Assembly: GCA_026003195.1 (NCBI GenBank)
Contig: BPGU01000004.1
Location: forward strand, 1 to 64,000
DNA: 64,000 nucleotides
Direction: 5' to 3'
Source of the DNA: Armatimonadota bacterium
GTDB lineage: Bacteria; Armatimonadota; HRBIN16
Part shown: one piece after another, positions 1-8,266 of the stretch
Layout: the number at the start of each line of letters is the position of its first letter
How positions within the stretch are numbered: the first letter of the stretch is position 1
Notes under the pieces: generated by a model
What the model was told of the DNA's origin: nothing
What the model saw: the letters and a program-made list of their open reading frames with translations, nothing else
The model's database searches: none
Made by a program: the position numbers and the translations under genes

Positions 1-165
1 ATCATCTGCCATCTCAGCGGTAACGTTGGTCAGCTCCCAGCGGGTACCGCACCGTGGGCACTCGCCGTCGTAGGTGTTCTGATACTGACCACCTACCAGC
101 TCCAGCTGAACCTGAGAACCGCAGGGGCAGGTAATGATGATGTACTGGGGATTGGTGTTGTACAT
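1..165 (-). CDS. Zinc-ribbon protein, C-terminus off the window
   Basis: Partial gene of 55 visible codons that leaves the window at base 1. The protein starts MYNTNPQYIIITCPCGSQ and carries a CPC near residue 13 and a CPRC about 23 residues later. This C-x-C/C-x2-C spacing is that of a small zinc ribbon. The start at 165 is set by an AAGGAG about 8 bases upstream on the minus strand. It is the most downstream visible gene of the minus-strand accessory module, preceded by a 15-bp tandem repeat in its leader. The function is unknown; DNA or RNA binding is only a guess from the fold. Confidence 0.75.
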   Translation of the reverse strand, partial: MYNTNPQYIIITCPCGSQVQLELVGGQYQNTYDGECPRCGTRWELTNVTAEMADD

Positions 166-181
166 GGCTTCTTAACTCCTT

Positions 182-226
182 CTTGTTCCCATCCTGCTTG
201 TTCCCATCCTGCTTGTTTCTATCCTG
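182..226 (-). repeat. Three-copy 15-bp tandem repeat in a leader
   Basis: Three adjacent 15-base units (182-196, 197-211, 212-226). The first two are identical and the third differs at two positions. They lie in the 74-base gap between the 77-aa gene and the zinc-ribbon gene, just upstream of the latter's Shine-Dalgarno site. On the transcribed strand each unit reads CAGGATGGGAACAAG. Confidence 0.8.
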
Positions 227-239
227 CTCCGGTATGTTG

Positions 240-473
240 CTAACGTGTGTTCTCGTCAATGTTAGCTTCCTGCCTCTGGATGGTCTCCCTGACACGCTCC
301 CACGCTTCGTCCAGCTCGTCTCTGGTTAACTGCAGTCGCCACTGCTCCATATCGATAAGGTGCTGGTAAGCGAACAGGAGCATGTCCTCCAGATCCAGGG
401 ATTGCTCTTGCTGTTTCATGAACAGCACATCCTGTAACATGAACTCAACTGCTTCCTGTACCCGTTCGTCCAT
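240..473 (-). CDS. Small hypothetical acidic helical protein
   Basis: 77 residues beginning MDERVQEAVEFMLQ, rich in Glu, Asp, Gln and Arg and predicted by eye to be almost wholly helical with no membrane segment. The start at 473 has a GGAGGT 7 bases upstream. It follows the 364-residue gene by 39 bases in the same direction, so it is probably part of one transcript. I do not recognise a family. Its small size and position suggest a phage or plasmid accessory protein. Confidence 0.7.
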   Translation of the reverse strand: MDERVQEAVEFMLQDVLFMKQQEQSLDLEDMLLFAYQHLIDMEQWRLQLTRDELDEAWERVRETIQRQEANIDENTR

Positions 474-512
474 GTCGTATACCTCCAGATAATGTATTTG
501 TGCACGCCAGGT

Positions 513-1607
513 CTAACATGATAGCACTTCCAAGAGTGCCTCAACACCTTTGTCACCACGTACGCTATACTCCAGCACAAGCGCTTGCATGTCCTGACCG
601 GTCTCCACCTTCTGCCAGGTAACCTCATGCACAATGGGCTGGGTGTTCAGTATGCGGTCTATTAATGTAGCCAGATAGGGCAGACTGCCCTTGCAAAGCC
701 TCTCCAGAGCGTCGTCCAATCTGAAGGTTCTAATAAGCCTGCGTGCTTCCGCTTCCAGATTGGCATCTGGAGCCAGAACCCTGTACGAGCTTGCAGAGAC
801 GTCGTAATATGCATGGATCAGTAAGTTGTCTATGATGACCAGATTCCTGGCGTCCTTCAGATCCATGCCTCTGCGTAGATACTGCTCCATGGATGCAAGC
901 GATATCAGATCTGCAGCCAAACGACGACCATACAGGAGCAGATCGTCGTACCTATCGTATAGCGTATTCCTGAACTCACTTTTGGCTATCCGGGATTGAT
1001 AGTCCAGCGCATCTCTCAGAGTCTCGATAACGTGTCTGGAGTAATATGTATCCCTCATGCCGTACATGAGCTCTGCCCTTACTACAGCGTTGGTGAACCG
1101 ATCCTTGATAGACAGGGAGCTGATGAACTTGATGAAAGGAGCCGTGTATCTCGTAGCGTCCTCCCAAAGAGCCTGTTCACAGGCATCTTTCCATTCCCGA
1201 CGGAACCGCCTGAAGAACGTGCAGGCATCCCTGTGAGCCCGTTCCACTTCGTTACCGTACAGGTAGTGGTACATTCGAGAGCCGTCCGGGTTACTCAGAA
1301 TGGACTCCCTGAGCATCCCTTCTCCTGCGCGGATGAAGGAATCGCTGAAGGCTGCCCCATCATCGTATTCAGATACAGCAACTTCCATATCGCCTGCGCG
1401 TACAACAAACGTACCCTGCTCATCGATATGCCTGCCCGGTTTGTACAGGAGAGTGGTGCCAGGAGTGAGTTCTACCTCTCTCGGTTTCATAAGGTGCACT
1501 ACTCTGTCGGGCCATCTGGTGCAGGACGGGAATTCGTATGGGGCGTCGAACAGCTCAACGGCACGGCGTGAGATGTAACGCAGAAGGAATCTGTAGTTCT
1601 TGGCCAT
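513..1607 (-). CDS. Hypothetical protein of the accessory module (364 aa)
   Basis: The reading frame stays open 25 codons further upstream, but the start at 1607 (MAKNYRFLLRYISRR) is chosen because AGGAGGT sits 6 bases before it. The protein is soluble, charged and largely helical in its second half (about residues 150-300), with many Arg and Tyr residues. No catalytic motif or known domain was recognised. It lies 13 bases downstream of the stop of the 140-residue gene, so it is probably co-transcribed with it. Phage or plasmid origin is inferred only from context. Confidence 0.7.
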   Translation of the reverse strand: MAKNYRFLLRYISRRAVELFDAPYEFPSCTRWPDRVVHLMKPREVELTPGTTLLYKPGRHIDEQGTFVVRAGDMEVAVSEYDDGAAFSDSFIRAGEGMLRESILSNPDGSRMYHYLYGNEVERAHRDACTFFRRFRREWKDACEQALWEDATRYTAPFIKFISSLSIKDRFTNAVVRAELMYGMRDTYYSRHVIETLRDALDYQSRIAKSEFRNTLYDRYDDLLLYGRRLAADLISLASMEQYLRRGMDLKDARNLVIIDNLLIHAYYDVSASSYRVLAPDANLEAEARRLIRTFRLDDALERLCKGSLPYLATLIDRILNTQPIVHEVTWQKVETGQDMQALVLEYSVRGDKGVEALLEVLSC

Positions 1608-1620
1608 GTTTGACCTCCTG

Positions 1621-2043
1621 CTAGCGGGAAGTGTTATGAAATAACGCGGACAGTTCAACCGGATACTCGAGCCTGTATTCATACCTTGGGATAGCTATCT
1701 GCGCTTGCATGTTGCCGGCTCTGTTGCACTCTATCATCAGGAAGGCATCCCACAGGTATCGCTCGCCTATCAGATCGACGACTTCCCTCCATTGTCTGTC
1801 GTTGATCAGGATGGGCGATTCCTGTTCCAGTGCCTTATCAAGATGCGGCAGGTCCAGTACAGGGATAACTTCACGGTCGATGACAACTACAGGCATTCTC
1901 CACAGGATGGACTGGTGCTCATCGAGCTGCTGAGCCATAGCCTGCATCCTGTCCAGCCTGGTTGATACCTCGTCACGGCTGTATCGCCGAACGATAATCC
2001 AGAGATCGCCTTCCTCAGTGATAAGCGGAATCACCAGATGCAT
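1621..2043 (-). CDS. Hypothetical protein (140 aa)
   Basis: Start at 2043 (MHLVIPLITEEGDLW) is supported by GAGGAG 7 bases upstream; the open frame extends 14 codons further without a ribosome site. The N-terminal half has alternating hydrophobic stretches (VIPLI, LWIIV, VVVID) compatible with beta strands, and the C-terminal half is mixed. No family was recognised. It lies 11 bases downstream of the 91-residue gene, in the same direction. Confidence 0.65.
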   Translation of the reverse strand: MHLVIPLITEEGDLWIIVRRYSRDEVSTRLDRMQAMAQQLDEHQSILWRMPVVVIDREVIPVLDLPHLDKALEQESPILINDRQWREVVDLIGERYLWDAFLMIECNRAGNMQAQIAIPRYEYRLEYPVELSALFHNTSR

Positions 2044-2054
2044 GGTTAGCCTCC

Positions 2055-2330
2055 TCATTGCCCAATTAACACCTTGTCCTGCCATTCCTCAGCCTCATGT
2101 AGCAGGTTGTGGAGTTCCAGCCTGGCACTGAAGTCGCCATCGTCTGCGTTATGAACGAGCTCCACGAATCGGCTTATCGGCAGGTGGTGGTATAGCACTT
2201 TGCTATCTACCAGGATAGCTGTGACCTCTGTACCGTCTCCATCTGATATCACCGCATAGCGGAACCGATAGACGGTGTTCCCTGTCTGATACCGGGCTTT
2301 GTCCACAAGGGCTACGTTGAGTGTTGACAT
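2055..2330 (-). CDS. Hypothetical small protein (91 aa)
   Basis: Begins MSTLNVALVDKARYQTGNTVY, with GAGGTAG upstream of the start at 2330. A beta-rich first half (YRFRYAVISDGDGTEVTAILVD) is followed by a helical, acidic C-terminus. It lies only 6 bases after the stop of the 219-residue gene, consistent with one operon. No known domain is recognised. Confidence 0.65.
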   Translation of the reverse strand: MSTLNVALVDKARYQTGNTVYRFRYAVISDGDGTEVTAILVDSKVLYHHLPISRFVELVHNADDGDFSARLELHNLLHEAEEWQDKVLIGQ

Positions 2331-2336
2331 GTTTGA

Positions 2337-2996
2337 CTACCTCTGATTCCTCACGAACTGGATGCAATGTTCGATGATGCTTGCGAACTGTTCGTCGGAG
2401 ATGACCTCTGAGCATTTGGCGGACCTCAACGGGTACTTGTACCACCATAGCGCCCAGTCTGTCGGCTTATACAGGAAGTTCGGTCTGATAACGGCGCATC
2501 CACGCCGGTGTCCGGCATGACCTTCTTGCCGGATGATCTCCAGCAGCTTCTCCTCTATCCGCCGGTGGTAGTCGCAGGAGCACTTGATGGCAACTCCATG
2601 CCACCAGTCGTCTCCTTCAGTGGGCCAGCCTAACTGCTGGTATACCGGTTTGATGATCTCTTCCAGCTTCTGCTCGTATTGCTTCCTGAAACTGCCTCCC
2701 ATATAGGCCAGACGACCGTACTGGTCCTCAAACCGCTTCCATACCTGCTGGAAGCAATCCTCCCGGTGCTGAAGCTGGTCTCGCCATTTCCAGAAGGGAT
2801 GGTAGTCCCAGCCGCAGTCACACTCCTGGTCGTAGTCTGGGAGCAACTCGAACAAGCCGCACCGGAATTCGTCGTAGACCGAGATGTCCAGCACATGGTA
2901 GAGTGGCAGGAATATCTGCTCCCAGCGTTTCCTGTCCGGGATAGGATGGCGTTCGTAGTACTGGTCGCCTTCTTCAATGCGAGCAATGTCCAGCAT
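2337..2996 (-). CDS. Cys/His/Trp-rich hypothetical protein (219 aa)
   Basis: The start at 2996 has AGGAGG 5 bases upstream. The sequence is unusually rich in Trp, Tyr, His and Cys. An ECDCGWDYHPFWKW segment (residues about 55-68) and a KCSCDYHRR segment (about 135-143) each combine C-x-C with nearby His, as in metal-binding sites. I recognise no family. Its leader (2997-3075) carries a 12-base direct repeat and a strong inverted repeat, and beyond it lies pentamer island 1. It is the promoter-distal neighbour of the HAD gene. Confidence 0.7.
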   Translation of the reverse strand: MLDIARIEEGDQYYERHPIPDRKRWEQIFLPLYHVLDISVYDEFRCGLFELLPDYDQECDCGWDYHPFWKWRDQLQHREDCFQQVWKRFEDQYGRLAYMGGSFRKQYEQKLEEIIKPVYQQLGWPTEGDDWWHGVAIKCSCDYHRRIEEKLLEIIRQEGHAGHRRGCAVIRPNFLYKPTDWALWWYKYPLRSAKCSEVISDEQFASIIEHCIQFVRNQR

Positions 2997-3008
2997 TTGA
3001 GCCTCCTG

Positions 3009-3075
3009 TGGTGGAATATCTGTCGTTGCGTGGTGGAATATCCGCCGGCAGATGGATTGGATTCCACCTGCCGGC
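3009..3075 (-). repeat. Leader with 12-base direct repeat and 8-bp hairpin
   Basis: Two copies of TGGTGGAATATC (plus strand 3009-3020 and 3031-3042) stand 22 bases apart just upstream of the 219-residue gene. They are followed by an inverted repeat GCCGGCAG (3044-3051) / CTGCCGGC (3068-3075) with a 16-base loop. The hairpin lacks a T-run, so it is not a convincing terminator. The direct repeats could be an operator. Confidence 0.6.
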
Positions 3076-3310
3076 TTGTTTGCCGTGCCTCGCCTTGGCT
3101 AGCCTAGCCAGGACTCGCCCCGCCCAGACAAGACTCGCCTTGACTGCCACGACGCGCCCAGCCGCACCATGTCGCGCCGTGTCGTGCCTTGCCAGGCCTG
3201 CCCAGCCTCGCCTTGCCACGCCTGGCCTCACCATGCCGTGCCTGCCATGCCAAGCCAAGTCTTGCCATGCCACGACGTGCGATGCGGTTCCTAGCCCAGC
3301 CAAGCCAAGC
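3076..3310. repeat. GCC-core pentanucleotide island 1
   Basis: About 235 bases made mostly of consecutive pentamers of the form NGCCN (plus strand), with the outer two bases varying and occasional one-base slips of phase. The island starts directly after the stop codon of the HAD gene (stop at 3311-3313 on the minus strand) and ends at the leader hairpin of the next gene. This is the most degenerate of the three islands, with several units such as TGGCT, GGACT and AGACA departing from the core. It shows no conserved reading frame. Confidence 0.85.
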
Positions 3311-4018
3311 CTATTTGCCGGATAGAGAATCTATTATCAGGTCCGGCAAACCTTCCAAACTGCTCAGCACGGGAACACTCGGATCTATCTCTACCTGCTG
3401 TGTAGCCTGCCAATCGCCACGGTCTATCAATATACCTCTCGCACCACATTGCAGTGCAGGTAGAATGTCAAACTGATAACTGTTTCCCACCATGACCACT
3501 CGCTGTGGATTGTGCTGAGCATCAAGCATCTCCAGCAATCGCAGGAAGCTATCTCTGTCCTTCGTGGCTGTGACCACCACATGGTGGAAATAGCCCCGAA
3601 TCCCAGACAGGTCTATCCTGCGGTTCTGGTGTTCCATATCACCGGCTGCGGAGTAGAGCACCAGCAGATGACCTCGTTTGCGGAGCTCCTCCAGCACAGG
3701 TATCGTCTCCGGATAGAGTTCCGGCGGAGCGTCCAACAGATGACGGAATGAGTAAATCGCTGCCTCTACTCCTGGATTGAACGGGATACCGTGTCTGGTT
3801 GCCAGAATGGTGTAGGTAATCACCAGACTCTCAATGAACCGTTCCGGTCTCAGACCACGATACGGTACACGGGCACGATCCAGATCGTCCAGCTGCTGTA
3901 TGATGTCCTCACCATAGATACCTATTTGCCCTAGCATCTGTTTGAACTCAGTCTTGATCCTCTCGTACACCGACTGTGTTCGCCAGAGCGTATCGTCTGC
4001 ATCAAGCACTACGGTCAC
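3311..4018 (-). CDS. HAD-superfamily hydrolase/phosphatase
   Basis: 235 residues from a GTG at 4018. GGAGGT sits 4 bases upstream of that GTG, and the next gene has the same GGAGGTAGA-plus-start arrangement. An in-frame ATG at 4030 would place the Shine-Dalgarno inside the coding region. HAD motif I is DADDTLW near the N-terminus (nucleophile Asp and acid/base Asp). Motif II is in LVLYSAAGD, the motif III Lys in TATKDRD, and motif IV is GNSYQFDI. This is a complete catalytic set for a Mg-dependent phosphatase of the haloacid dehalogenase type. The substrate is unknown; such enzymes occur in phages as nucleotide or DNA-end phosphatases. It is flanked by islands 1 and 2. Confidence 0.85.
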   Translation of the reverse strand: MTVVLDADDTLWRTQSVYERIKTEFKQMLGQIGIYGEDIIQQLDDLDRARVPYRGLRPERFIESLVITYTILATRHGIPFNPGVEAAIYSFRHLLDAPPELYPETIPVLEELRKRGHLLVLYSAAGDMEHQNRRIDLSGIRGYFHHVVVTATKDRDSFLRLLEMLDAQHNPQRVVMVGNSYQFDILPALQCGARGILIDRGDWQATQQVEIDPSVPVLSSLEGLPDLIIDSLSGK

Positions 4019-4038
4019 GTCTACCTCCATAGAGTAAT

Positions 4039-4063
4039 TCCCACCCGCCACAACCCAGATGCC
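4039..4063 (-). promoter_or_regulatory. Conserved 25-base leader element, copy A
   Basis: Matches bases 5082-5106 with only two differences across 25 bases. On the transcribed strand the core reads GGGTTGTGGCGGGTGGGA. It lies exactly at the junction between pentamer island 2 and the HAD gene, 20-45 bases before the start codon. A promoter, processing site or translational element is possible; I cannot tell which. Confidence 0.7.
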
Positions 4064-4158
4064 TCGCCAGGACTCGCCGTGCCGTGTCGGGCCTCGCCTC
4101 GCCTGCCTTGCCTCGCCAGGACTCGCCGTGCCGTGTCGGGCCTCGCCTCGCCTGCCTT
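4061..4158. repeat. 49-bp perfect tandem duplication in island 2
   Basis: Bases 4061-4109 are repeated identically at 4110-4158, followed by 9 bases of a third copy. The unit is itself a string of GCC-core pentamers plus one 4-base step, which explains the period of 49 rather than 50. A perfect match implies recent duplication by slippage or unequal recombination. Confidence 0.9.
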
Positions 4159-4320
4159 GCCTCGCCACGTCCTGCCGAGTCGCGCCTTGCCAAGCCCAGT
4201 CACGTCATGCCTAGCCGAGCCCTGCCTGCCTTGCCAGGACGTGCCGCGCCGGGCCTTGCCCAGCCTCGCCTTGCCTGCCGTGCCACGCCATGCCGAGCCA
4301 AGCCTAGCCGTGCCACGCCC
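4064..4320. repeat. GCC-core pentanucleotide island 2
   Basis: About 257 bases of NGCCN-type pentamers filling the gap between the stop of the parB-like gene (stop codon 4328-4330) and the leader of the HAD gene. Bases 4173-4270 form a block almost identical to 5172-5270 in island 3: two substitutions plus a one-base indel with an adjacent change. Confidence 0.9.
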
Positions 4321-4327
4321 GCCGAGA

Positions 4328-5056
4328 CTAGCTCTCTACAGGTTGCTTACGTTTGCGGGCAGTCTTGAACTGGCTCAGGAAAGCACCGAGAGCTTTGTAC
4401 AGGAGCCGCATCTCCCGGATGAGCTCACCGTTGCCAGTCGGTACCAGCCCGTTCTCCAGAGCAGACCTTAGCTGCTTCACCTGGAAGGTGATGGAACTGC
4501 CGAGCACCTTGCTGTGAGCGGATGCCTGATCCTCTGTCATCTCGGTGCCGGAGAGGTGACGAACGGCGAACTTGACCGGAATGGGCTTTGGTTCATCGCC
4601 TCCGTTCTGTACACGAGCCTCACGCACCAGCAGACGCTGCGTGTACTCCAGAGGACGACCGAACAGACGAGCCAGATGGGGAACGTCTACCCCATACGGT
4701 CTCAGCAGTTGAGCTGCATGTACCAGGTCCTGAGAAGTGAGAGCCTTGCCGTGCTTGATGTTGGCACGCACGGCCTCCTCAACCATCGACCTCTCGTCCT
4801 CGTAGTGCTTGATGACAGCCGGAATCTCTGCTTCCGGACCGAACTCGGCGATGAACGCCTCCCTGCGGTGAGCACCGTCTACCAGGATGCCCGTGTCGGA
4901 TACAAGGATAGGTGGCAGATTCTCACCGGCACGGATGGCGAGCTGCAGATGGTAGACGTGTACCCGGTCTATCCCTCCGGCACGGGGATAGATGCGTTCG
5001 TCCAGGATTAGCTGGTTTGCTCGAATCCTGGTAGTTGCAACGGTATCGTCAGTCAT
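4328..5056 (-). CDS. ParB/sulfiredoxin-fold nuclease-like protein
   Basis: 242 residues. The start at 5056 has AAGGAGGT 5 bases upstream; the open frame continues into island 3 without a ribosome site. Residues about 10-75 match the ParB N-terminal (ParB/Srx) domain. They include LPPILVSDTGILVDGAHRRE, containing the GxHRxxA-type motif that in ParB proteins binds nucleotide. Residues about 100-165 (SQDLVHAAQLLRPYGV, HLARLFGRP) resemble the helix-turn-helix region that follows in ParB. The rest is basic and helical. Family roles are centromere binding in partition or DNA-binding regulation in phages. No ParA is in the window. It is flanked on both sides by repetitive islands, which could be its binding arrays (inference). 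Confidence 0.82.
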   Translation of the reverse strand: MTDDTVATTRIRANQLILDERIYPRAGGIDRVHVYHLQLAIRAGENLPPILVSDTGILVDGAHRREAFIAEFGPEAEIPAVIKHYEDERSMVEEAVRANIKHGKALTSQDLVHAAQLLRPYGVDVPHLARLFGRPLEYTQRLLVREARVQNGGDEPKPIPVKFAVRHLSGTEMTEDQASAHSKVLGSSITFQVKQLRSALENGLVPTGNGELIREMRLLYKALGAFLSQFKTARKRKQPVES

Positions 5057-5081
5057 ATCTACCTCCTTACGTGATGTGTTA

Positions 5082-5106
5082 TCCCACCCTCCACAACCCT
5101 GATGCC
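5082..5106 (-). promoter_or_regulatory. Conserved 25-base leader element, copy B
   Basis: Second copy of the element at 4039-4063, with two mismatches in 25 bases. It sits between island 3 and the parB-like start codon, 26-50 bases upstream of it. Its conservation, while the DNA between element and gene differs, suggests selection or recent duplication of an island-plus-leader cassette. Confidence 0.7.
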
Positions 5107-5451
5107 TTGCCTCGTCGTGCCGGGCCCTGCGTTGACGTGCCACGCCCCGCCTCGCCTGCCTTGCCTCGTCTTGCCGAGTCGCGCCGTGCCAAGCCCAGTC
5201 ACGTCATGCCTAGCCGAGCCTTGCCTGCCTTGCCAGGACGTGCCGCGCCGGGCCTTGTCCCAGCCTCGCCCTAGCCTGCCTTGCCTGGCCGGGCCCTGCC
5301 TTGCCGATCCATGCCCAGCCGAGGCGTGCCACGCCGTGCCTGCCTTGCCCAGCCAAGCCAAGCCGCGCCTCGCCCGGCCACGCCTTGCCTCGCCTTGCCT
5401 GCCGTGCCAAGCCCGGTCGCGCCATGCCCCGCCTCGCCATGCCTGCCAGGA
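5107..5451. repeat. GCC-core pentanucleotide island 3
   Basis: About 345 bases, the longest and most regular island. In the row 5341-5400 all twelve consecutive pentamers have the form NGCCN. In 5281-5340 ten of twelve are NNGCC, in a phase shifted by one. It begins immediately after the stop codon of the 246-residue gene (stop 5452-5454). Bases 5172-5270 are shared with island 2. Frames through it are open only because the repeat lacks stop codons, so I do not call genes here. Confidence 0.92.
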
Positions 5452-6192
5452 CTACTGGTTATCGTTCTCGGTGGGCGGGACGAACGTCGGTTTGGGATCT
5501 GCCAGGGCTACCGCCGCGATCTCAAACAAACCCCAGCCGAGACCGTGACTCTCACGACTGTCCGGTCTGCCTTCACCGATACCGACCTGCAAGCCTACAC
5601 GAGCCAGCAGGTTGGTCACATCGGCCAGGCTGAACTGAGACTCGTCCCATGAGATGACTACGTTCGCCGCCCACTGTCGCCACATAGGACGGGCACGCAG
5701 GTCCAGCACGCCGGTAGCGTTACGCACGGGCATCACCGACATCTCGGGCTCGCCCTCAATCTTGACAAGCGGCGTACCATCCACTGCGTCCAGCCCGTCG
5801 GGGGCGACGAACAGCGACAGCTTCGCCAGAGTCATGCGGTATCCGACCAGTCGACAGGCGGAGATGAGCGCGTTGCGGAAAGCACTTGCGGGGATGCCGA
5901 CCCAGCCCTCGGAGCTGACATGCATCGCCTGCTTGTAATCTTCCTCAAAGTTGCGAGGCTCACGAGATTTGCCCTTGCGGGCTCGCTGACCTGCCTCGTG
6001 CTGCTCCCGTATCGCCTGCATCGCCTTCTGCGAGAACCGTGCCTGGCAATACGGAGTGATGCCGACGATGCGGAACTGGGCTGAGGCGAACCGTGGCGGC
6101 TGGATGACAACCTCCTGACCAGCCGAAGCGGAAAGCTCCAGCGTCGGATCGGAGCCGTTGCTCCTGGATTTGGATTTGGTTGCAACTGGCAT
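5452..6192 (-). CDS. Conserved phage-type hypothetical protein, possibly RAMP-like
   Basis: 246 residues from 6192, with AAGGAGGT 7 bases upstream. A disordered basic head (MPVATKSKSRSNGS) precedes a structured body. Features include GWVGIPASAFRNALISAC (about residues 97-114) and, near the C-terminus, a Gly-rich QVGIGEGRPDSRESHGLGWG stretch (about 202-221). A late Gly-rich loop of this kind resembles RAMP-superfamily (Cas5/6/7-like) folds. I also recall similar hypothetical proteins in tailed phages, but cannot check it. No catalytic residues are obvious. Its stop codon borders island 3. Treat the RAMP comparison as a weak structural hypothesis. Confidence 0.7.
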   Translation of the reverse strand: MPVATKSKSRSNGSDPTLELSASAGQEVVIQPPRFASAQFRIVGITPYCQARFSQKAMQAIREQHEAGQRARKGKSREPRNFEEDYKQAMHVSSEGWVGIPASAFRNALISACRLVGYRMTLAKLSLFVAPDGLDAVDGTPLVKIEGEPEMSVMPVRNATGVLDLRARPMWRQWAANVVISWDESQFSLADVTNLLARVGLQVGIGEGRPDSRESHGLGWGLFEIAAVALADPKPTFVPPTENDNQ

Positions 6193-6216
6193 TGTACTTA
6201 CCTCCTTGTTGGTTGT

Positions 6217-6552
6217 TTATGGGATATCTACACCTACCGCACCGGCCAGGTTCGGTCTGGGAGCTCTCACCGGGAACTGCTCATCGGTGAGGTCCACACC
6301 TTCACCTGCACCGGACGCCAGCGGGTATTTCCGTTCCAGGTCTTTGAGCACATCCGTCAGCGTCTCCTGATACTGCTCTGGGAACGATGACGCCACCTCC
6401 CGGATACGGTCTATCCCGCAACCGGACTTGAGCAGATCTTCACATCTGTCGTAGAGCTCCTCGTCCAGCGAGACACCGAACGTGTCCGCTATGGCGAACG
6501 CCTCTTGCAGAGTGCTCTTTATCGTCGTCATCACGATGTCCAGCTCGCTCAT
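6217..6552 (-). CDS. Hypothetical protein (111 aa), coupled
   Basis: Starts MSELDIVMTTIKSTLQEAFA at 6552. Its ATG overlaps the TGA of the upstream gene in an ATGA junction, so translation is coupled, and AGGAGC lies in the end of that gene. It is mostly helical for about 75 residues, followed by a Gly/Pro-rich tail. Cys residues at CEDLLKSGCG are notable but form no clear metal motif. No family was recognised. Confidence 0.7.
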   Translation of the reverse strand: MSELDIVMTTIKSTLQEAFAIADTFGVSLDEELYDRCEDLLKSGCGIDRIREVASSFPEQYQETLTDVLKDLERKYPLASGAGEGVDLTDEQFPVRAPRPNLAGAVGVDIP

Positions 6553-7352
6553 AGATGTGCTCCTGTCAACTTCATGGTTTCAATCGCTATCCTGACGTGA
6601 CTCCCGAACTGGAGATGGGTCAGTGTCCGTTCGTCGGACTTAAAGACCGCATAAACGTCGCCGGAGGAATGGGAGAGCAGAGCACGACGTGGCGATGTCT
6701 CTACCACCAGCATCGTCCCGCTCTCATTACGCTGCTTCAACTGCGCACCGAGCTCGCCGAGCAACAGGTCGTCCATGTTGCCGTAGAAGCCCGTGCCGAG
6801 CCTTATCGTCAACTCGCCCGGATAGTCCAGCTGCGGTAACTGCCCCGTATCCAGAACGGTGGCTGCACGGACGACGGACAACGGGATGAAGTACACCATG
6901 TGGGTGTATGGCGACTTCTGGGAATATATCAGACAGGGCTCTGTGCGCTCCTCAACGGGCTCCGTCTCTATGACAGGGAGCTGCAAATCCTCCGGAAGCT
7001 CCAGACAGTGCATAGCCCCCTTATGCTCTACACAGAGCGCCATCCAGCTCTTATCATCAGTCTTGACCAGCTTCAACTGTAGTTGCGCCGTCTGCTGGTT
7101 ACAGACCTGACGAGCGATATCATCACTGCACCAGATGACCTTACCGTGCTCGTTGTAGTGCAATGCACGTCGGAGCTCCGGACTGGTGATATCCTGAGCG
7201 GTGGCGACAGTTACCGTGCCGATGTTCAGCGAAGCCTCTACCGGCATTGAACAGTTGAGTAACCGGGCTGCGGTCTCCAGAACCGGTTGCAGGTCGTCTG
7301 TGAACGCAACCAGCGGCGAACGGTAACTGTCTTCAAGTATCAGGGCGTACAT
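6549..7352 (-). CDS. Hypothetical beta-rich protein (267 aa)
   Basis: The start at 7352 (MYALILEDSYRSPLVAF) is fixed by GGGGAGGTG about 7 bases upstream; the frame is open 56 codons further but through the sigma-gene terminator. The protein has regularly alternating hydrophobic residues and about two similar halves. Segments near residues 145-267 (PYTHMVYFIPLSVV, ELTIRLGTGFYGN) suggest beta sheet. It resembles sliding-clamp-like or two-domain beta proteins only vaguely, and I assign no function. It is the first gene after the terminator at 7432-7458, so it likely has its own promoter in 7353-7431. Confidence 0.7.
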   Translation of the reverse strand: MYALILEDSYRSPLVAFTDDLQPVLETAARLLNCSMPVEASLNIGTVTVATAQDITSPELRRALHYNEHGKVIWCSDDIARQVCNQQTAQLQLKLVKTDDKSWMALCVEHKGAMHCLELPEDLQLPVIETEPVEERTEPCLIYSQKSPYTHMVYFIPLSVVRAATVLDTGQLPQLDYPGELTIRLGTGFYGNMDDLLLGELGAQLKQRNESGTMLVVETSPRRALLSHSSGDVYAVFKSDERTLTHLQFGSHVRIAIETMKLTGAHL

Positions 7353-7431
7353 AGTCGTACACCTCCCCTTAAGAGAACTCACTGGAAAGAGATATGAGGA
7401 ACGGGCGGAGAAGGTACCGCATGTGCAAAAT

Positions 7432-7458
7432 AAGGCGCCGGTATTTATCCGGCGCCTT
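7432..7458 (-). terminator. Rho-independent terminator of the sigma gene
   Basis: Perfect 10-bp inverted repeat AAGGCGCCGG (7432-7441) / CCGGCGCCTT (7449-7458) with a 7-base loop. Read on the minus strand it is followed by TATTTTGC. It lies 37 bases past the stop of the sigma-like gene. Confidence 0.85.
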
Positions 7459-7494
7459 GAACCGCAGAGAAGGAGGATGGAAGGATGTGACGCA

Positions 7495-8094
7495 CTAAAC
7501 CCAGCAAGGAGGATCTGCACGCAGAATCTCTAAAGCCCTCTGGATATGCTGATGCACTCGCTGCCTGGACATGTTCAATAACCTGCCTATCTCGTCCATA
7601 GTGCATTCTCTCGTGCCGATACCAAAGTAACAGACGATGCATTGATACTGCAACGTGTTCAGTCGTTCCCTGAGATACCTCTGCCAGGAGAGGACGCTGA
7701 GTATGCTGTCATAAGAAGGTTCCTCATAACTCAGGGCGTTCAATACCTCATAATAGGCTGGATGTTCCTCATTCTCTAACACGCTCTCTATGGGCAACCA
7801 GGACGGACCGGTGCATCGGTTCCTGAAGTCGCATTGAGACACGACGCAGAGATACCTGTTGTTCCTTATCCATTCCAGCATGGCATGCACCAGTCTGGTA
7901 TACAACAGCGTGCTGAACTTCGTGCCTCGTGATGGATCGTAGTCCAGAATGGTCTGCCAGAGCACTATCCTGGACTCCTGCAATAACTCCTCACGCTCGT
8001 AACTGTTTCTGGCATACCGACGCACGAGTCTGTATATCATGCGCTCGTAAGCGCTCCAGAACTGGTTGAACCTGGTCTCGTCCTGCTGCTGCAT
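7495..8094 (-). CDS. Sigma-70-family RNA polymerase sigma factor
   Basis: 199 residues from the ATG at 8094, with GTGAGGG a few bases upstream; a GTG 5 codons earlier is an alternative. Region 2 is seen in ELLQESRIVLWQTILDYDPS followed by RGTKFSTLLYTRLVHAMLEW (core binding and -10 recognition). Region 4 is the C-terminal helix-turn-helix, CTMDEIGRLLNMSRQRVHQH. The linker (residues about 90-150) is not a normal region 3. The size and the region 2 plus region 4 layout suit a small alternative or phage-encoded sigma factor. It is the first gene of the minus-strand module and ends in its own terminator, so it may direct transcription of the downstream genes (inference). Confidence 0.88.
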   Translation of the reverse strand: MQQQDETRFNQFWSAYERMIYRLVRRYARNSYEREELLQESRIVLWQTILDYDPSRGTKFSTLLYTRLVHAMLEWIRNNRYLCVVSQCDFRNRCTGPSWLPIESVLENEEHPAYYEVLNALSYEEPSYDSILSVLSWQRYLRERLNTLQYQCIVCYFGIGTRECTMDEIGRLLNMSRQRVHQHIQRALEILRADPPCWV

Positions 8095-8100
8095 ACTTTC

Positions 8101-8122
8101 CCTCACCACTGGAGATAGATAG
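8101..8122 (-). repeat. Duplicated 22-base element, copy next to sigma gene
   Basis: Matches 8267-8288 at 19 of 22 positions. The minus strand reads CTATCTATCTCC at its core, ending in GTGAGG, which also provides the sigma gene's Shine-Dalgarno. Possible operator or autoregulatory site. Confidence 0.7.
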
Positions 8123-8164
8123 CGGAACAGGGGGCATTAAGTGCCGGCATTGGGCATAAAAATT

Positions 8165-8187
8165 GGGGAGGCGGTAGATGCCTCCCC
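8165..8187 (-). terminator. Minus-strand hairpin with U-run, possible small RNA end
   Basis: GGGGAGGC (8165-8172) pairs perfectly with GCCTCCCC (8180-8187), with a 7-base loop. On the minus strand it is followed by AATTTTTAT. There is no protein gene upstream on that strand before the tRNA promoter. It therefore ends either a roughly 100-base untranslated transcript or an attenuated leader of the sigma gene. Confidence 0.75.
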
Positions 8188-8266
8188 AGACAAACAGAAC
8201 ACGGCAACGATAGAGTTGGAGACGAGGAGGGAAGCCTGTGGGCGGGCTGGTTTTGATATACAATTG

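Follow-up and report, generated by a model that had tools for sequence, protein, structure and literature searches.

Three islands of pentanucleotide repeats in the window, the 64-kb stretch of DNA analysed here (on contig C4), are in all probability guide-RNA (vrRNA) arrays of a VIPR system, borne by a large phage and predicted from sequence to be aimed at competing mobile elements. VIPR (Viral Interference Programmable Repeat) is a phage-borne RNA-guided system presented in a 2026 preprint, whose vrRNAs consist of 9-16 YNNGG repeats with a conserved GGY and a hypervariable NN, occur in phages next to a RAMP-like vipr gene and target competing mobile elements under a 1-nt skip rule (PMC13142463). 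The published arrays are mainly viral or proviral, are intergenic, flank vipr and have a conserved structured 3' tail; accessory genes with DNA-related function (vap1-6), seven types, and staggered arrays with overlapping vrRNAs are also reported, and the system is proposed as an ancestor of class 1 CRISPR (PMC13142463). The islands had been put forward in the original prediction as the best candidate in the window for something undescribed, a claim since superseded by the 2026 description of the YNNGG vrRNAs (PMC13142463).

Period-five islands between minus-strand genes

The period of five is real, as had been claimed from the sequence. Identity at lag 5 is 0.60-0.63, with z scores of 10.6, 10.9 and 11.1 for islands 1, 2 and 3 against 300 dinucleotide-preserving shuffles, and harmonic peaks are present at lags 10, 15, 20 and 25, so the lag-5 autocorrelation check did not refute the claim. 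Successive GCC cores are spaced by exactly 5 nt in 18/30, 30/42 and 39/56 cases in the three islands, and the perfect run of twelve pentamers was recovered (12/12 at 5341-5399). Nothing like the islands was found when the rest of the 64-kb window was scanned for the lag-5 pattern. Read on the minus strand, which bears the genes, the pentamers become GGCNN. The three-base core had been described as invariant: GGC does predominate (81% of pentamers in the window), but GAC (10%) and GTC (6%) occur as well, for a total deviation of about 19%, and in other viral arrays the core deviates mostly to GGT. The NN positions are close to random, with an entropy of 3.69 of 4 bits in the window and of 3.7-3.9 bits across the NN positions measured.

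The placement between minus-strand genes also holds for all three islands. Island 3 lies between the stop of the gene at 5452-6192 and the leader of the gene at 4328-5056, island 2 between the stop of the latter and the gene at 3311-4030, and island 1 between the stop of that gene and the one at 2337-2996. The islands are unlike REP, CRISPR, HIP1 and STRR repeats, in agreement with the original prediction; a CRISPR array was rejected because the repeat unit is 5 nt, not the ~23-50 nt of identical repeats separated by unique spacers, and because no Cas family was matched among the ten neighbouring proteins. An Rfam scan returned two tRNAs alone at meaningful scores, and promoter and terminator scans stayed at chance level.

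In each island the phase is interrupted by a 4-nt step, GGCA/GGC, and a simple segmentation at these steps gives units of about 9-15 pentamers (Table 1). The NN strings of the last two units of array B are nearly identical. A G-rich tail, GGGTTGTGGNGGGTGGG, closes arrays A and B and is conserved in HRbin16; that of array A appears G-quadruplex-like by inspection. The conserved 3' tail is present once per island and not once per unit.

Table 1. Features of the locus, in window coordinates; units are given 5' to 3' on the minus strand
Feature	Position	Strand	Basis
Segment that the window has in common with 202-kb phage contig C5 (its right end)	1..8237		BLAST, 99.5%
vipr, 246-aa RAMP-fold protein (phrog_4652), homologue of SUSP1 Vipr	5452..6192	-	Family profile and AlphaFold
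Island 3, putative vrRNA array A	5102..5451	-	GGCNN segmentation with GGCA/GGC steps; lag-5 z = 11.1
Units of array A	5443-5400, 5399-5341, 5340-5258 (irregular), 5257-5226, 5225-5157, 5156-5102	-	
G-rich 3' tail of array A (CAGGGTTGTGGAGGGTGGGA)	5082..5101	-	Side-by-side comparison of 3' flanks
ParB-like DNA-binding protein, 242 aa, candidate vap	4328..5056	-	phrog_1033 ParB-like, E = 4e-11
Island 2, putative vrRNA array B	4059..4323	-	Segmentation; 49-nt tandem duplication; z = 10.9
Units of array B	4319-4276, 4275-4227, 4226-4153, 4152-4104, 4103-4059	-	
G-rich 3' tail of array B (CTGGGTTGTGGCGGGTGGGA)	4039..4058	-	Side-by-side comparison of 3' flanks
HAD-family phosphatase between arrays B and C	3311..4030	-	PF00702, E = 1e-14
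Island 1, putative vrRNA array C	3080..3305	-	Segmentation; z = 10.6
Units of array C	about 3305-3243, 3242-3199, 3198-3145, 3144-3080	-	
Long hairpin closing array C (GCCGGCAGGTGGAATCCAATCCATCTGCCGGC)	3044..3075	-	Fold; conserved in HRbin16

A RAMP-fold gene beside the arrays

The gene upstream of island 3 codes for a protein without Pfam family that matches phrog_4652, a family of unknown function also matched by all 70 members (70/70) of the family that we assembled. The profile of this 70-member family hits the solved SUSP1 Vipr (PDB 36pp) with E = 4.2e-40 and has no other match below 0.3; since the window protein as a lone query reaches SUSP1 Vipr at only E = 0.21, the link to Vipr rests on the family profile. 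Three glycines (G200, G204 and G221) are near-invariant in the alignment. The AlphaFold model of the protein (pLDDT 89.6) finds mostly CRISPR RAMPs among its Foldseek matches in the PDB, with Csm3-type subunits first, in a structure library extending to April 2026, pointing to a predicted Csm3/Cas7-like fold. Several homologues of the window Vipr are annotated as hypothetical in named phages: tblastn identified the mycobacteriophage/Gordonia phage proteins Saal gp51 and UmaThurman gp39 as well as one in Quico, and a further one is g34 of Cyanophage Cy-LDV1 (BK059895.1 31478-32104; 61% identity).

The association of arrays and vipr extends well beyond this locus. Homologues of vipr turned up in most of 120 viral contigs fetched solely by the GCCNN DNA pattern. 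Counted over 116 array-bearing viral contigs, 78 harbor a vipr homologue, against none of 71 control viral contigs fetched for other patterns. The array nearest to vipr lies at a median distance of 14.5 bp (maximum 791 bp, nearly always below 500 bp), and 167 of 174 arrays are on the vipr strand, 7 being on the opposite one. The 4-nt step accounts for 322 of the 403 phase breaks in the viral set, 196 of them spelled GGCAGGC, and the lengths of pentamer runs peak at 9-12. No vipr homologue was detected in the other 38 array-bearing contigs (L034, L039, L040 and 35 others), which may encode Vipr of divergent types or be cut off before the gene.

A large phage as carrier

A search of the whole 4.58-Mb genome gave 66 forward and 0 reverse matches to the pattern, which is therefore strand-specific, and all 66 fall in two copies of one locus, on contigs C4 and C5. 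The pattern is also present in G003 and G005, two further genomes of the genus, at the homologous locus; the G003 contig is identical to a contig of HRbin16 (bacterium HR16). With the 116 viral contigs, these loci bear out the expectation that similar tracts would be found elsewhere.

Contig C5 codes for an endolysin, a primase, a ribonucleotide reductase, a helicase, an RNA ligase, sigma factors and a terminase, which places the locus in a large phage. In the window, the phage sequence stops about 250 bp before genes for tRNA-Arg and tRNA-His, suggesting a prophage. The carrier is probably a large and temperate phage of a hot-spring bacterium of the HR16 lineage.

Some other features of the phage sequences were recorded. 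The phage segment has a sigma-70 family factor at its right end (7495-8109), which weakly resembles the anti-phage system protein MzaA at a score far below the cut-off for MzaA. Between small genes of the segment, 3.5 copies of a 15-bp tandem unit, TCCTGCTTGTTCCCA, occupy 177-228. In phage contigs of genome G000, the terminase frames contain three in-frame TGA (C8, L278-L279) and three in-frame TAG (C6, L273-L275); their open-frame statistics do not separate stop recoding from decayed prophages, and no suppressor tRNA was found on the scanned stretches of the two contigs.

Turnover of the guides

The guides differ between copies of the locus that are otherwise nearly identical. The C4 and C5 copies diverge by 0.2% outside the islands, whereas island 3 differs by 7% plus indels, islands 1 and 2 being unchanged. 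Compared with G005, divergence outside the islands is 0.26%, whereas islands 2 and 3 differ by 11-12% and by deletions of 40-61 nt. Changed islands thus diverge 30-50 times more than the flanking genes. Across the three close copies, whole stretches are replaced within islands while the GGC register is kept, and HRbin16 has the same layout with different guides.

These comparisons bear on the possibility that the arrays belong to a VIPR locus that has decayed or fallen silent in the prophage and are kept as remnants. The deviating cores, the irregular stretch at 5340-5226 and the failure to find perfect targets (see below) would fit such decay, but the vipr frame is intact, the three close copies change by replacement in register, and HRbin16 maintains the layout around other guides. 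We consider decay improbable, and VIPR guide-RNA arrays the far better reading.

Neighbouring genes and other explanations

The ParB-like gene is a likely candidate for an accessory gene, because homologues are also neighbours of vipr in L047, L094, L103 and L138, four independent viral contigs. Homologues of the HAD-family gene are confined, within the contig set examined, to loci of this genus, and none of ten neighbouring proteins matched a Cas family. The position of the ParB-like gene between islands 2 and 3 would also suit an array of DNA sites bound by its product, such as the centromere or partition site of a ParB system. However, vipr stands beside arrays in 78 viral contigs and a ParB-like homologue in only four, the arrays keep to the strand of vipr (167 versus 7), which a DNA site would not need, and the NN positions are near-random, leaving this explanation a very slight chance. 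The protein-binding array of the original prediction was nevertheless near the mark in another form, since it is the RNA copy of the islands that would be expected to bind the neighbouring Vipr. Two other early suggestions, a selfish microsatellite prone to slippage and an element acting in transcript stability or attenuation, have as little in their favour: internal duplications such as the exact 49-nt tandem repeat at 4060-4167 recall slippage, which would however homogenise NN rather than leave it at 3.7-3.9 of 4 bits, and the RAMP-fold gene beside the array in 78/116 contigs, the unit lengths and the regular GGCA/GGC step would go unexplained, while the vipr association and the convergence of targets described below also argue against both.

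Candidate targets

Patterns were built from the NN strings of the putative guides, skipping 0-3 bases between pairs, and compared with about 1.2 Mb of sequence from the genus. A concentrated signal appeared at the 1-nt skip only, where three unrelated guides match strongly in C14, an 11-kb contig of the same genome bin. Unit 4226-4153 fits at 21/24 positions in the integrase gene (3748-3782), on the opposite strand and with the skips falling on the wobble base; unit 4275-4227 fits at 15/16 in a third gene, and a guide of HRbin16 at 18/20 in the leader of a D5-type primase gene. The genes of C14 (integrase, D5-type primase, sigma-70 fragment and terminase) indicate a small phage or satellite, the type of target reported in the VIPR preprint (PMC13142463). 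Its per-bin convergence score is S = 10.5 at skip 1, the best bins reaching 2-3 at skips 0, 2 and 3, and controls with shuffled NN order (132 guide sets) do not exceed 7.5. Taken singly, the matches to C14 are no better than those of the best shuffled guides; it is their convergence that stands out.

In ten genomes of the genus, the three patterns match C14 and one other place only, a short dispersed repeat in G005, to which the HRbin16 guide fits better (19/20) than to C14. This repeat of about 120 bp has three copies in G005 with 78-82% identity (G005:C7 98706-99503; C14 4296-4433). If the repeat match is real, the HRbin16 guide may be aimed at a mobile repeat. Close to the repeat, on G005 contig C7, a putative type III CRISPR effector operon with Cas10-like and RAMP-like genes was recognised by inspection (L396, 10344-16504). 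The three converging guides give moderate support from sequence matching for C14 as a target, as the matches are imperfect, one guide also fits the dispersed repeat, and the test was partly post hoc, having been devised after the convergence had been seen.

No guide has a perfect full-length target, and the full-length patterns of three guides gave nothing at up to 3 mismatches in the ten genomes. Two guides had no exact match in IMG/VR, and the guides of all viral loci gave no target signal in the ~1.2 Mb. Exact matches at skip 3 were discarded as arrays matching themselves. A 16-base core common to units 4226-4153 and 5225-5157 has 54 matches in IMG/VR, of which 40 fall in genes encoding the portal-protein motif EAxKQTIYE. 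The portal protein was rejected as a target because the flanking NN disagree and a control with the order reversed still produced 17 matches with a similar frame bias; the matches were put down to chance likeness to a motif that is common. The genus yielded no P22-type portal.

Proposed mechanism and comparison with known systems

By analogy with the preprint (PMC13142463), from which transcription, assembly of Vipr on GGC, gapped NN recognition and silencing are all carried over, a minus-strand transcript would give rise to guide RNAs of about 9-15 pentamers bounded by the GGCA/GGC steps. Vipr subunits would coat each guide by way of its fixed GGC, leaving the variable NN pairs to read double-stranded DNA as NNx, one target base being skipped per repeat. 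The complex, with the ParB-like protein as accessory factor, would then silence genes in competing mobile elements, C14 being one likely victim.

The locus shares with published VIPR a phage-borne RAMP-fold Vipr, noncoding pentamer arrays beside vipr on the same strand and hypervariable NN; it may further share mobile-element targets, predicted under a 1-nt skip, and, in the ParB-like gene, a DNA-interacting accessory gene nearby. It differs in that the arrays are interleaved with genes (ParB-like and HAD), the tandem units have no tails of their own and are joined by the 4-nt step, the core tolerates GAC and GTC where the published one is GGY, and the host lineage is thermophilic. With class 1 CRISPR-Cas it has in common the predicted fold (Csm/Cas7 RAMPs) and the principle of a guide RNA carrying RAMP subunits, whereas CRISPR repeats and spacers are missing, no Cas family was matched among the ten neighbouring proteins, and the guide information would be gapped.

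New here are the thermophile lineage, the arrays set among ParB-like and HAD genes, the tail-less units and the GNC-tolerant core. We regard the locus as a new member of VIPR rather than as a new type, because the staggered arrays of the preprint may be this very architecture. That the clade forms a distinct type, with tail-less GGCA/GGC cassettes interleaved with genes, a ParB-like accessory gene, a relaxed GNC core and a gain and swapping of guides that far outpaces change in the flanking genes, is conceivable but rather doubtful; if true, it would imply a dedicated or recombination-based acquisition of guides predating CRISPR.

As an independent member of VIPR in a thermophilic lineage, reached from raw sequence alone, the locus offers a candidate natural target in the same bin, so that the gapped code becomes testable outside model systems. 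The 78 viral contigs in which arrays and vipr co-occur constitute a large set for the study of array architecture, and the three near-identical copies with altered guides open guide turnover to direct study.
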